Assembly: GCA_014804495.1 (NCBI GenBank)
Contig: JAAUZS010000013.1
Coordinates: 1-14,707, forward strand
Length of the DNA: 14,707 nt
Direction: 5' to 3'
Origin: Lachnospiraceae bacterium
GTDB taxonomy: Bacteria; Bacillota; Clostridia; Lachnospirales; Lachnospiraceae
The translations under genes were made by a program, and so were the position numbers. The first letter of the stretch is position 1. Each line of letters starts with the position of its first letter. This document shows, piece after piece, positions 12,548 to 14,707 of this stretch. A model generated the notes under the pieces. It searched no databases and was not told where the DNA came from. It worked only from the letters and a program-made list of their open reading frames with translations.

Positions 12548-12559
12548 AATGCGTATAAT
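12531..12559 (+). promoter_or_regulatory. Sigma-A-type promoter for murC
   Basis: TTGGTT, a 17-base spacer and a perfect TATAAT precede murC. The start point would fall near 12566, leaving a leader of about 37 bases. An upstream ATG at 12549 that could extend murC lies inside this promoter, which argues for the ATG at 12603 as the true start. Confidence 0.6.
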
Positions 12560-12602
12560 ACTTATAAAAGCATATTATTATATTCAGATAGGAAGTTATA
12601 CT

Positions 12603-13997
12603 ATGTATCAAATTGATTTTAAAAATCCGGTTCACGTATTTTTCATTGGAATAGGCGGCATCAGCATGAGCGGTCTGGCGGAGATACTTCTTTCGGAAGG
12701 TTTTAAGGTGTCAGGTTCCGACAGGCAGCAGTCTTCTCTCACTGAGGATCTTCTCCGCAAAGGCGCCTCCGTTTATTATGGACACAAAAAAGAAAATCTC
12801 ACTCCATGCCCCGATTTAATTGTATATACCAACGGCGCCATCAAAAACGATAATCCGGAGCTTGTAGCAGGCAAAGACCTTAATATACCTATTCTTACCA
12901 GGGCACAACTGCTTGGACAAATGATGAAAAATTATAAGATGCCCATTGCTATAAGCGGCACTCACGGCAAGACTACAACTACTTCCATGTTGTCCGGAAT
13001 TCTGCTTAAATCAGATACAGATCCTACTTTATCCATTGGCGGTATTTATAAAGAAATAGGTGGAAATTTCCGCCTTGGAAGTTCCGAATATTTTGTAACC
13101 GAAGCATGCGAATATACCAACAGTTTTTTAAATTTTTCCCCCAGAATAGGGATTATACTTAATATAGAAGAAGATCATCTTGACTTTTTCAAAGATATTA
13201 ATGATATTCGTAATTCCTTCCATGAATTTGCCAAGCTGCTGCCATCCGCAAATGATGGCGGAACGCTTATTATCAACGGGGATATTACCAATGTGGAAGA
13301 AATAACAGCTTCTCTCCATTGCCAAGTCATAACCTATGGTTCCTCCGCTTTTTGCGACTATATGCCTACAGATATAACATTTGATGAATTTGGACACCCT
13401 TCATTTATTCTGACAAAATCAGATGGTACAAATGAAGGCTCTTATTCTCTCAGTGTTCCAGGGCTCTATAATGTCTACAACGCATGTGCTGCCATTGCTG
13501 TCGCGAAGTTCCTTGGTATTGACAACGACATTATAAGCACGGCATTATCTGACTTTAAAGGAACAGACCGACGTTTTGAATATAAAGGTAAAGTAAATGG
13601 TTTCTCTATAATAGATGATTATGCACATCATCCTACAGAAATTACACAAACCTTAAAAGCTGCGAAGAATTACCCCCATAAAACCATTTGGTGTGTATTT
13701 CAGCCGCATACTTATACAAGAACCAAGGCATTTCTTTCTGAATTTGCTCAAGCCTTGACGTTCTCTGACAAGATTATTCTGGCAGACATATATGCCGCCA
13801 GAGAAAAGGACACTTTAGGAATCAGCTCAAAAACACTACAGGCGGAAATAGAGAAACTCGGACACGAATGTTATTATTTTTCTTCTTTTGAAGAAATTGA
13901 AAATTTCATTTTAAAAAATTGCACAAAGGATGATTTGTTGATAACTATGGGCGCCGGAGATGTCGTTAAAATAGGAGAAAACTTACTTAAAAAATAA
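12603..13997 (+). CDS. murC: UDP-N-acetylmuramate--L-alanine ligase MurC
   Basis: This 464-residue cytosolic ligase joins L-alanine to UDP-MurNAc using ATP, the first peptide-adding step of peptidoglycan synthesis. The N-terminal UDP-binding domain shows FIGIGGISMSGLAEIL (14-29) and GSD. The central domain has the P-loop GTHGKTTTT (119-127) with Lys123, then EACEYTNSF and the NIEEDHLDFF metal/nucleotide region. The C-terminal domain carries PGLYNVYNACAA and DDYAHHPTEI near 338. All family signatures are intact and the length is normal. The ATG at 12603 has AGGAAG seven bases upstream. The frame is open 18 codons further up, but that extension runs through the promoter. The gene has its own promoter and a strong terminator, so it is probably monocistronic. 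Confidence 0.98.
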   Translation: MYQIDFKNPVHVFFIGIGGISMSGLAEILLSEGFKVSGSDRQQSSLTEDLLRKGASVYYGHKKENLTPCPDLIVYTNGAIKNDNPELVAGKDLNIPILTRAQLLGQMMKNYKMPIAISGTHGKTTTTSMLSGILLKSDTDPTLSIGGIYKEIGGNFRLGSSEYFVTEACEYTNSFLNFSPRIGIILNIEEDHLDFFKDINDIRNSFHEFAKLLPSANDGGTLIINGDITNVEEITASLHCQVITYGSSAFCDYMPTDITFDEFGHPSFILTKSDGTNEGSYSLSVPGLYNVYNACAAIAVAKFLGIDNDIISTALSDFKGTDRRFEYKGKVNGFSIIDDYAHHPTEITQTLKAAKNYPHKTIWCVFQPHTYTRTKAFLSEFAQALTFSDKIILADIYAAREKDTLGISSKTLQAEIEKLGHECYYFSSFEEIENFILKNCTKDDLLITMGAGDVVKIGENLLKK

Positions 13998-14102
13998 TTT
14001 TCCACAATATCCACATAAAAAGAAGCTATTGTCGGTTCTTTTGATTGTGGATATTTTTTGCCGCTAATCCCACATATAGATTTGTTATCCACATTTTCCA
14101 CA
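13998..14102. promoter_or_regulatory. Cluster of five DnaA-box-like 9-mers between murC and the dnaD-like gene
   Basis: Compared with the consensus TTATCCACA: TTTTCCACA at 13998-14006, ATATCCACA at 14007-14015, its reverse complement TGTGGATAT at 14046-14054, a perfect TTATCCACA at 14085-14093, and TTTTCCACA at 14094-14102. The four imperfect sites each differ at one position. Four sites form two pairs of directly abutting boxes. The second and third also form the arms of the murC terminator stem, so they are not independent of each other. DnaA binding is inferred from sequence only. Confidence 0.55.
14006..14059 (+). terminator. Intrinsic terminator of murC
   Basis: AATATCCACA (14006-14015) pairs with TGTGGATATT (14046-14055), and inside it AAAAGAA pairs with TTCTTTT, giving a long two-part stem. 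A T-run (14054-14059) follows at once. It begins nine bases after the murC stop. The stem arms contain DnaA-box-like sequence. Confidence 0.75.
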
Positions 14103-14109
14103 TACATTA

Positions 14110-14123
14110 TGAACAAATGTTCG
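14110..14123. promoter_or_regulatory. Candidate LexA (SOS) box
   Basis: TGAACAAATGTTCG matches the Bacillus-type LexA consensus CGAAC-RNRY-GTTCG at 13 of 14 positions, the only difference being the first base. The central AAAT fits RNRY. It lies eight bases after the last DnaA-like box and about 50 bases upstream of the extended -10 of the dnaD-like gene. It would also lie at the start point of a weaker possible promoter (TTGTTA, 17 bases, CATTAT; 14082-14110). Confidence 0.45.
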
Positions 14124-14168
14124 TTTTCTCTTTCTGGCAAATTGACTATATCTTTTTAAATTTCCCCG

Positions 14169-14177
14169 TGCTATAAT
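14169..14177 (+). promoter_or_regulatory. Extended -10 promoter of the dnaD-like gene
   Basis: TGCTATAAT provides a perfect TATAAT with the TGn extension. A TTGACT upstream (14142-14147) is 24 bases away, too far for a normal -35. The start point would be near 14184, leaving a leader of about 85 bases. Confidence 0.5.
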
Positions 14178-14194
14178 TTGTCTTGCCTAAAAAG

Positions 14195-14233
14195 TGCATG
14201 AGTTGGCAATAACAACCGACTTTACATGATGCA
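14195..14233 (+). promoter_or_regulatory. Leader hairpin before the dnaD-like gene
   Basis: TGCAT and ATGCA form an outer stem, and AGTTGG with CCGACT (one G-T pair) an inner stem. TTTTCTT follows directly. The structure is weak but terminator-like and lies in the predicted leader, so it could attenuate transcription. Low confidence. Confidence 0.25.
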
Positions 14234-14270
14234 TTTTCTTATGGTATTAAAAAGAGGCGGGTTACAAAAT

Positions 14271-14519
14271 ATGAGCAATTTGACTATCTATCAGGATAAT
14301 TATACGGATGCAACGGTTATCTCTAACCGTTTTATTGACGAATATATGAAAGCAGCCAATGACGCACAGATAAAAATCTATCTGTATCTAACCCGTATGA
14401 TAAGCGCCAGACTTACTACGAGTGTTTCAGAAATTGCAGATATATTTAATTATACGGAAAAGGATGTCCTTCGTGCGCTAAAATATTGGGAGAAAAACCG
14501 TCTGCTCACATTGGATTAA
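14271..14519 (+). CDS. DnaD-like replication protein, N-terminal domain (ends at a premature stop)
   Basis: The 82 residues from the ATG at 14271 (MSNLTIYQDNYTDATVISNR onwards) form a winged-helix domain of the DnaD N-terminal type, including the pattern AQIKIYLYLTRM, SVSEIADIFNYTEKDVLRAL and YWEKNRLL. DnaD-like proteins help remodel the origin and load the helicase during replication start and restart. The frame continues 15 codons upstream, but the peptide there is not family-like. The RBS (GAGG, about 13 bases away) is moderate. The stop TAA at 14517-14519 comes exactly at a run of 16 A. The same frame carries on beyond it with DnaD-like linker sequence, so the gene appears truncated by this stop. 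In related clostridia the protein continues with a linker and a second DnaD/DnaB domain. Confidence 0.75.
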   Translation: MSNLTIYQDNYTDATVISNRFIDEYMKAANDAQIKIYLYLTRMISARLTTSVSEIADIFNYTEKDVLRALKYWEKNRLLTLD

Positions 14520-14533
14520 AAAAAAAAAAAAAA
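14518..14533 (+). repeat. Homopolymer of 16 A in the dnaD-like gene
   Basis: An uninterrupted run of 16 A begins inside the stop codon TAA. If translated in the gene's own frame it would encode four Lys codons and then an AAT. Such runs mutate easily and are error-prone in sequencing. Changing the number of A alone would not remove the stop, because GATTAA remains. Confidence 0.95.
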
Positions 14534-14707
14534 TCTGAAGGGTATTCATTTACTGGATTTGAACGCTTCTACAGTTCTTCCCGTACAGAATTCCACCGTC
14601 TCTACTCCAATATGCATCGTACCGATTTCATCAAAATTAAGCGCCGCAGACGGGGAAATATCAGAAGATGACCCTTATGAAAAGCCGTCATATACATTAG
14701 ATCAGTT
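14520..14707 (+). pseudogene. In-frame continuation of the dnaD-like gene after the stop (partial)
   Basis: In the same frame as the preceding 82-residue segment, translation after the stop reads KKKKN and then LKGIHLLDLNASTVLP, followed by a Ser/Pro-rich linker and ISEDDPYEKPSYTLDQ at the window edge. The absence of further stops and the linker-like composition show this was one reading frame. There is no good start codon with an RBS here, so it is unlikely to be made as a separate protein. The second DnaD/DnaB domain would lie beyond the window. It may be a genuine disruption or a sequence error next to the poly-A run. Confidence 0.6.

Follow-up and report, generated by a model that had tools for sequence, protein, structure and literature searches.

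A real and deeply conserved DnaA-box locus lies between murC and a dnaD-like replication gene in the genome examined here, that of a gut bacterium of the Lachnospiraceae, and this locus is not the main origin of replication. Sequence comparisons make binding of DnaA to the cluster likely, and we give a probability of about 0.6 to the reading that this DnaA-binding locus, widespread in the order, doubles as a DnaA-responsive upstream region of dnaD-dnaC. The cluster would then probably tie the starter protein DnaA to the supply of its helicase-loading helpers. Throughout the text, the window refers to the whole analyzed stretch of 14,707 nucleotides, whose relevant features are the following:

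12604-13997, + strand: murC, with Mur_ligase, Mur_ligase_M and Mur_ligase_C domains
13936-13944, - strand: in-gene DnaA-type box TTATCAACA, within one mismatch, inside the 3' end of murC
13998-14006, + strand: box A1, TTTTCCACA, immediately following the stop codon of murC (13995-13997)
14007-14015, + strand: box A2, ATATCCACA, abutting A1; left hairpin arm
14006-14055, + strand: hairpin with a T run behind it, resembling a terminator at the end of murC; the outer arms of the hairpin are boxes A2 and A3
14046-14054, - strand: box A3, ATATCCACA; right hairpin arm
14085-14093, + strand: box B1, TTATCCACA, a perfect match
14094-14102, + strand: box B2, TTTTCCACA, abutting B1; last box before the promoter
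14111-14122, no strand assigned: LexA/SOS-type palindrome GAAC-AAAT-GTTC, lying after box B2 and before the promoter
14169-14177, + strand: extended -10 promoter element TG-C-TATAAT, a conserved alignment block
14271-14707, + strand: dnaD-like gene, running past the end of the window; DnaB_2 domain present twice in the relative L109

The box cluster, its neighbors and the origin

The name murC was given from the Mur ligase domains of the product and the position of the gene, and its start at 12604 was picked by eye within the open reading frame 12549-13997. The dnaD-like protein matches the solved DnaD structure 8ojj in sequence, and the DnaB_2/DnaD type read in L109 upholds the view of the first-pass annotation that the downstream gene encodes a replication-initiation protein. 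It is followed by a gene for an IstB/DnaC-type ATPase and then by a ribose-phosphate pyrophosphokinase-type gene. In the window, the dnaD-like frame is interrupted by a run of 16 A (14518-14533). This run is probably an assembly artefact, because an equal-length stretch at the same position reads open in the near-identical L109 and because many N occur in the contig just downstream of the window. Slippage or frameshifting at the run, or a pseudogene, was considered and found unlikely, given that same open stretch. An Rfam scan of 13800-14500 returned no family at gathering score, and no match to the DnaA C-terminal domain was obtained in the window's own assembly, which is listed as 93.97% complete.

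The five 9-mers within one mismatch of the DnaA-box consensus, one of them perfect, that had been described in 105 bp (13998-14102) are all present. The extent given to the cluster was too small: it begins at 13936 inside murC, the in-gene site TTATCAACA having proved to belong to it. The excess of boxes was also correctly judged to be strong, since the richest 105-bp stretch in each of 600 dinucleotide shuffles of the window held zero, one or two boxes (7, 522, and 71 shuffles, respectively) against five in the window itself. The expected spacing has to be revised, from one site per 4.7 kb by simple counting to about one per 2.9 kb by dinucleotide shuffles; the whole window contains 11 sites within one mismatch versus 5.05 +/- 2.20 in 200 such shuffles, two of which reached 11. 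In the 3,748,572-bp assembly, the exact tandem double box WTWTCCACAWTWTCCACA occurs twice, both times at this cluster, with 17 further sites at up to two mismatches (3 for the reversed control pattern), and the perfect 9-mer occurs 58 times (20 for its reversed control). Since it groups several boxes more tightly than chance would give, the locus is a candidate DnaA-box cluster outside oriC. The murC coding region contains further recurring 9-mers that differ from the consensus by at most one mismatch, both in the window (13619-13627) and in relatives. These sites, among them TTATGCACA over the D-Y-A-H-H codons, were taken by eye as protein conservation and left out of the cluster.

Dense DnaA boxes adjoining primosomal genes are what a second or alternative replication origin might look like. 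The first-pass annotation had thought a main origin less likely for want of a nearby dnaA or dnaN, and neither was found as a neighbor of the cluster. In a closed relative (G035, 2.77 Mb), the GC skew crosses from negative to positive values at dnaA (1.43 Mb) and keeps its positive sign across the locus (1.676 Mb), 240 kb from dnaA; the skew check that had been suggested, run on this one closed genome in 20 stretches of 20 kb, thus gave no sign change at the locus. Together with the location away from dnaA, this skew supports the earlier judgment and leaves an alternative origin hardly credible. In 6 of 10 relatives, those with a computed same-contig distance, the locus lies 101-668 kb from dnaA (about 3-23% of the genome); of the other four, G102 has both on the same contig with no computed distance and three have them on different contigs. 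The position is origin-proximal on the basis of these six relatives, not of the window's own genome. Boxes of the same type surround dnaA itself in all 10 relatives (4-10 in roughly 3 kb). A strict DnaA-trio was present in none of 181 intergenics, yet also in none of the 10 dnaA loci used as positive controls, and a relaxed trio, whose count of 27/181 versus 14.6 in shuffles is to be read with these negative strict-trio controls, was found as well.

Conservation of the boxes and the coding end of murC

An alignment of relatives had been proposed as a check, and the 9-mers are indeed kept upstream of the dnaD-like gene. In 78 of 80 named loci, which come from close relatives mostly labeled Lachnospiraceae, at least four boxes (up to one mismatch, in-gene site counted) occur in the 400 bp upstream of the dnaD-like start, and the remaining two have only 194 and 73 bp upstream before the contig ends. 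The intergenic part alone contains three to seven boxes in the 78 named loci with a readable murC end. Over the 1.398 Mb of named loci, there are 79 clusters of at least four boxes, 78 of which lie at the murC-dnaD junction (77 within the limits of the script, plus L152, where the cluster starts 469 bp upstream); the single cluster away from the junction is in L115. Thirty of the named loci, including the window, were aligned. Block A of this alignment consists of two successive boxes right after the murC stop, a variable loop and an inverted box, often followed by T's, and block B of two or three abutting boxes, partly degenerate in some rows, which precede a conserved promoter-like block. 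Box A2 is conserved in this alignment, in which A3 and B1 are also seen.

The dnaD-like gene was found in 148 of the 150 family genomes drawn. We surveyed 89 of the 147 matching genomes besides the window's own, namely the 29 best-matching relatives, all of which have at least four boxes in 450 bp, and 60 more distant ones (about every second of the remaining family genomes), with at least three boxes per 700 bp in 50 and fewer in 10. The reversed consensus, searched as a control in the 60 regions of 700 bp, gave no match in 46 and a single one in 14. Among 83 of the 89 genomes (L081 and five without a readable murC end being omitted), 66 have at least three intergenic boxes, 17 have fewer, and 69 have the exact in-gene box.

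The in-gene box TTATCAACA falls in the L-I-T codons (TTG-ATA-ACT) of the murC motif L-I-T-M-G-A-G-D. Among the 183 loci whose murC end could be read, 156 carry precisely this sequence. The 183 are drawn from a set of 190, without L104, L116, L060, L195, L220, L229, and L251, whose murC end motif was unreadable; the set includes neither L081 nor the window's own copy, L052. The three residues are encoded by TTG in 157/176, ATA in 171/178, and ACT in 163/182 loci, as against shares of 8, 20, and 22% for the same residues further upstream in these murC genes; after the box, the codons for G, A, G, and V are more variable. In the wider family set, the counts are 69/79, 75/80, and 67/83. The p values attached to the codon counts treat the loci as independent, though the loci are related. 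Mere protein conservation was rejected as an explanation of the in-gene box, the codon counts being far off the murC baseline, and these comparisons indicate that its codons are under strong synonymous constraint, which looks like coding sequence held by a DNA-binding protein. The spacing to the intergenic boxes is also recurrent, with the first + strand box 62 bp from the in-gene box in 136/183 loci and directly after the murC stop in 114/183. At the level of the class, the 16-mer TGTTGATAACTATGGG was detected in 15 of 393 genomes (13 of 20 in the family, one of three others in the order, and 1 of 370 in the rest), and its sole match outside the order (L444) lies outside murC.

These data bear on the possibility that AT-rich sequence, codon choice and a terminator hairpin together produced the boxes incidentally, without any DnaA binding. 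Two of the sites are indeed hairpin arms, a third is part of a coding sequence, the region is rich in A and T, and DnaA binding is a prediction. Such an origin of the boxes nonetheless appears very improbable: it fits neither the ceiling of two boxes per 105 bp in shuffles nor the zero or one reversed-consensus match per 700 bp in 60 genomes, nor the departure of the in-gene codons from their baseline. It is equally at odds with a class sample (the best 30 of 121 matching genomes, 4 of them of the family), in which the 26 loci of other families, including one from the same order, have only zero to three boxes at their dnaD-like genes.

The second and third intergenic boxes pair in one hairpin (14006-14055), as had been noted. 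A + box and a - box stand 20-60 bp apart after murC in 108/183 loci; in the other 75, no inverted pair was counted. Compared with its own shuffles, the sequence between inverted boxes has the more stable fold (mean z -3.25; 88% of 101 distinct sequences reach p<=0.05; the window's own has p=0.05), and the pair is followed by T's (median 6 of 10). In the alignment, the hairpin arms largely keep their letters, whereas inner stem letters change with the stem kept. A simple terminator scan, limited to loops of 3-8, found no terminator. In loci that have a murC terminator, its arms thus seem to be formed by DnaA boxes. One could therefore imagine a DnaA-dependent terminator or roadblock, with DnaA on the in-gene and hairpin boxes stopping murC read-through into the next gene. 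The boxes that form the arms, the stem kept despite its changing inner letters and the first box set directly against the stop codon would all suit this scheme, and a passage in the literature reports a possible DnaA-dependent attenuator of the Escherichia coli his operon (PMC10989985). We consider it improbable, because it leaves block B unexplained and finds no inverted pair to act upon in 75 of the 183 loci.

The promoter side, the LexA-type box and known DnaA loci

A sigma-70 scan gave one weak site, and the extended -10 element emerged from the alignment. The motif TGnTATAnT is present in 141 of 162 intergenics, a count that omits 21 order loci, versus 5.5% of mononucleotide-shuffled ones. 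The gap between the end of box B2 and the -10 hexamer measures 69 bp in the window. For the 61 of 88 loci of the wider family set in which the last box could be measured against the -10, 21 have a gap of 67-71 bp, 13 one of 77-80 bp and 27 some other value. Over the 141 loci, 633 boxes lie upstream of -60 (29.5 per kb), six in the core promoter from -60 to +10 (0.61 per kb) and one in the leader (0.16 per kb). The boxes are thus found at a preferred, variable distance from a conserved putative promoter, and their pattern fits an upstream control region better than steric blocking, activation not being proven by the pattern. Distances from block B to the -10 gather near 59, 69, and 79 bp. Helical phasing of block B to the promoter was considered and set aside, the best period (9.1-9.3 bp) being that which a 9-bp box repeat would give.

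Between the last DnaA box and the promoter, close relatives of the window carry a LexA-type site, a feature absent from the first-pass annotation. Among 79 intergenics of close relatives, 24 contain strict GAAC-N4-GTTC (0.1 in shuffles) and 39 a relaxed version (2.1 in shuffles), which in 37 of the 39 lies 48-51 bp before the -10. The wider set of 104 has no strict site and five relaxed ones (1.8 in shuffles). Of 15 lexA loci of the same genus, 13 have the strict motif within 350 bp upstream of lexA, and no other strict site occurs in the 68,020 bp of 22 lexA loci; the LexA match in the window's own assembly was weak and below the cut-off. GAAC-N4-GTTC is thus the motif of the putative operator at lexA itself, and LexA binding at the window's palindrome is predicted on this ground. 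The motif is in print for Bacillus subtilis, as is GAAC-N4-GTTT/C for Clostridioides difficile (passages in PMC4234289), and the main text of that C. difficile LexA paper contains neither "dnaD" nor "dnaC". In eight loci of other genera (L062, L074, L076, L197, L198, L203, L213, and L227), we observed a conserved CCCTTGATTTTACTGG-like 15-16-mer upstream of the dnaD-like gene, possibly the site of a putative second factor; it lies 43-44 bp before the -10 in the six of eight measured, near the position of the LexA box in the window's clade.

Under the favored reading, DnaA would bind the in-gene box, block A (the abutting pair after the murC stop) and block B (the second tandem array), and this binding would probably be cooperative, as it is on the box arrays of B. 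subtilis. In genomes with dnaD-dnaC next after murC, block B would stand at its preferred distance upstream of the extended -10 promoter, and DnaA occupancy would set transcription of the helicase-loading operon. Because the boxes avoid the core promoter and leader, an activating or looping effect would be expected rather than simple steric repression. The bound locus would also hold DnaA away from oriC, and in the window's clade the LexA box between block B and the promoter would add an SOS input. It is from sequence patterns that we infer the binding of DnaA and LexA, the use of the promoter, the direction of regulation and the titration of DnaA.

Several known systems resemble parts of this scheme. 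The DnaA-box clusters of B. subtilis are reportedly those of Okumura et al. 2012. Passages in three papers describe them as likewise grouping several boxes outside oriC, title them oriC-proximal and give the proposal that they hold DnaA and so delay initiation (PMC5295017; PMC13220808; PMC11019786). Unlike these clusters, the present one is a single locus that recurs widely in the order at the murC end, has an in-gene box under apparent synonymous constraint and is linked to dnaD-dnaC. The rows available from a table of the top 20 DnaA sites in B. subtilis name no murC, dnaD or dnaB site, and the same source describes the DnaA-activated sda promoter, where a box array also lies upstream of the promoter and DnaA acts as a transcription factor (PMC4447404, in part). 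Unlike at sda, the target here would be the helicase-loading operon. Caulobacter crescentus is a distant bacterium by phylum. Its DnaA regulon, in the part of the source available, includes control of the replication genes dnaQ and dnaB helicase, with predicted DnaA boxes upstream of the replicative helicase gene dnaB (PMC8203912); in contrast, the locus described here precedes primosome/loader genes and not the helicase, and differs in its array and conservation. DnaA and LexA sites likewise share one promoter region at E. coli uvrB, per a passage in PMC6015884, but uvrB is a repair gene, whereas here a helicase-loading operon would be concerned and the strict LexA site is restricted to the window's clade. 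Non-origin DnaA-box loci that act on DnaA also include E. coli datA and DARS (PMC5295017, in part); a review passage describes B. subtilis as lacking IHF (PMC13220808).

Our search, with subscription journals mostly outside it, recognized no paper on DnaA boxes in Lachnospiraceae or at murC-dnaD; PMC11019786, in the part available, mentions murC and dnaD in other connections. A passage in a paper on the C. difficile origin states that how this species regulates DnaA activity is unknown (PMC7561715). DnaA regulation in Clostridia is thus open at least in part, and the locus is a concrete candidate, which recurs widely in this order, some of whose members are gut bacteria, and which could hold DnaA and set the supply of its downstream helpers.

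Distribution in the order and the murC end as probable anchor

Among 66 further order genomes outside the family with a dnaD-like gene, 28 have at least three boxes per 300 bp before dnaD. Where murC was matched upstream, this holds for 26 of 38 genomes, and where it was not, for 2 of 28. In total, 47 of 85 order genomes outside the family have the cluster at dnaD and 38 lack it; it is widespread in the order, not universal. The array is dispensable, because 17 of the 83 family genomes have fewer than three intergenic boxes and 12 of the 38 order genomes with murC upstream fewer than three per 300 bp.

For 25 of the 28 order genomes lacking a murC match upstream of dnaD, we also looked for murC elsewhere. 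It was matched in all 25, with a readable end in 24. The exact in-gene box is retained in seven of these 24 murC genes, each of which is followed within 400 bp by one to five boxes; among the remaining 17, this stretch is free of boxes in 13, has one box in three and three boxes in one. Of the 17 boxes that follow the seven genes in this interval, 13 are no more than about 65 bp from the stop; the promoter-proximal second array (block B) is therefore mainly a feature of the dnaD arrangement. The gene that follows is a TetR-like frame in one case (by eye), with convergent frames in others, and we noted murC-end boxes upstream of an EF-P-like gene (by eye) in L413, L414, and L421. Because this smaller cluster, with its in-gene box, persists away from dnaD in 7/24, the anchor of the cluster seems to be the 3' end of murC, and we rejected the idea that the boxes belong to dnaD alone. 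The murC end by itself can thus carry the element, in which case control of dnaD would be an additional use and not its sole role.

The first-pass annotation had offered two readings, DnaA control of the dnaD-like gene and a DnaA-titrating cluster. Parts of both fit, and sequence cannot separate them. Taken strictly, titration would make this a locus that titrates or inactivates DnaA, in the manner of the B. subtilis clusters or of E. coli datA, with dnaD adjacent by descent and no regulatory link. The smaller cluster kept at the murC end in 7/24 genomes without dnaD there, in some before convergent genes, agrees with this, as does the distance of 101-668 kb from dnaA in the six genomes where it was computed, and passages in two papers report that deleting B. 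subtilis clusters outside oriC leads to early initiation (PMC5295017; PMC13220808). Titration with no regulatory link nevertheless strikes us as rather unlikely, given that, where dnaD follows, a second array has a favored spacing to a conserved promoter-like element and boxes are nearly absent from the core promoter and leader. The reading of a DnaA-binding locus that doubles as an upstream region of dnaD-dnaC accommodates both sets of observations. It can be extended, tentatively and with somewhat less than even odds in our estimate, to a dedicated DnaA-sensing locus across the coding end and terminator of murC, through which active DnaA (and, in one clade, SOS/LexA) would set the supply of helicase loader while DnaA is buffered. 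If true, such a locus would be a feed-forward device of initiation control, of a type that we did not find described for this order.

The exact tandem box TTATCCACATTATCCACA is present in 29 of 97 order genomes, at 40 places, 30 of which were examined: 21 are between murC and dnaD (19 of them outside the family), 2 are beside dnaA, and 7 are elsewhere. In L290 and L300, from two different families of the order, exact tandem boxes lie near position 1500, upstream of a hibernation-promoting-factor-like gene (by eye), possibly a second recurring DnaA locus. In L282, also near 1500, they lie near a ParB-like frame (by eye), with another frame between.
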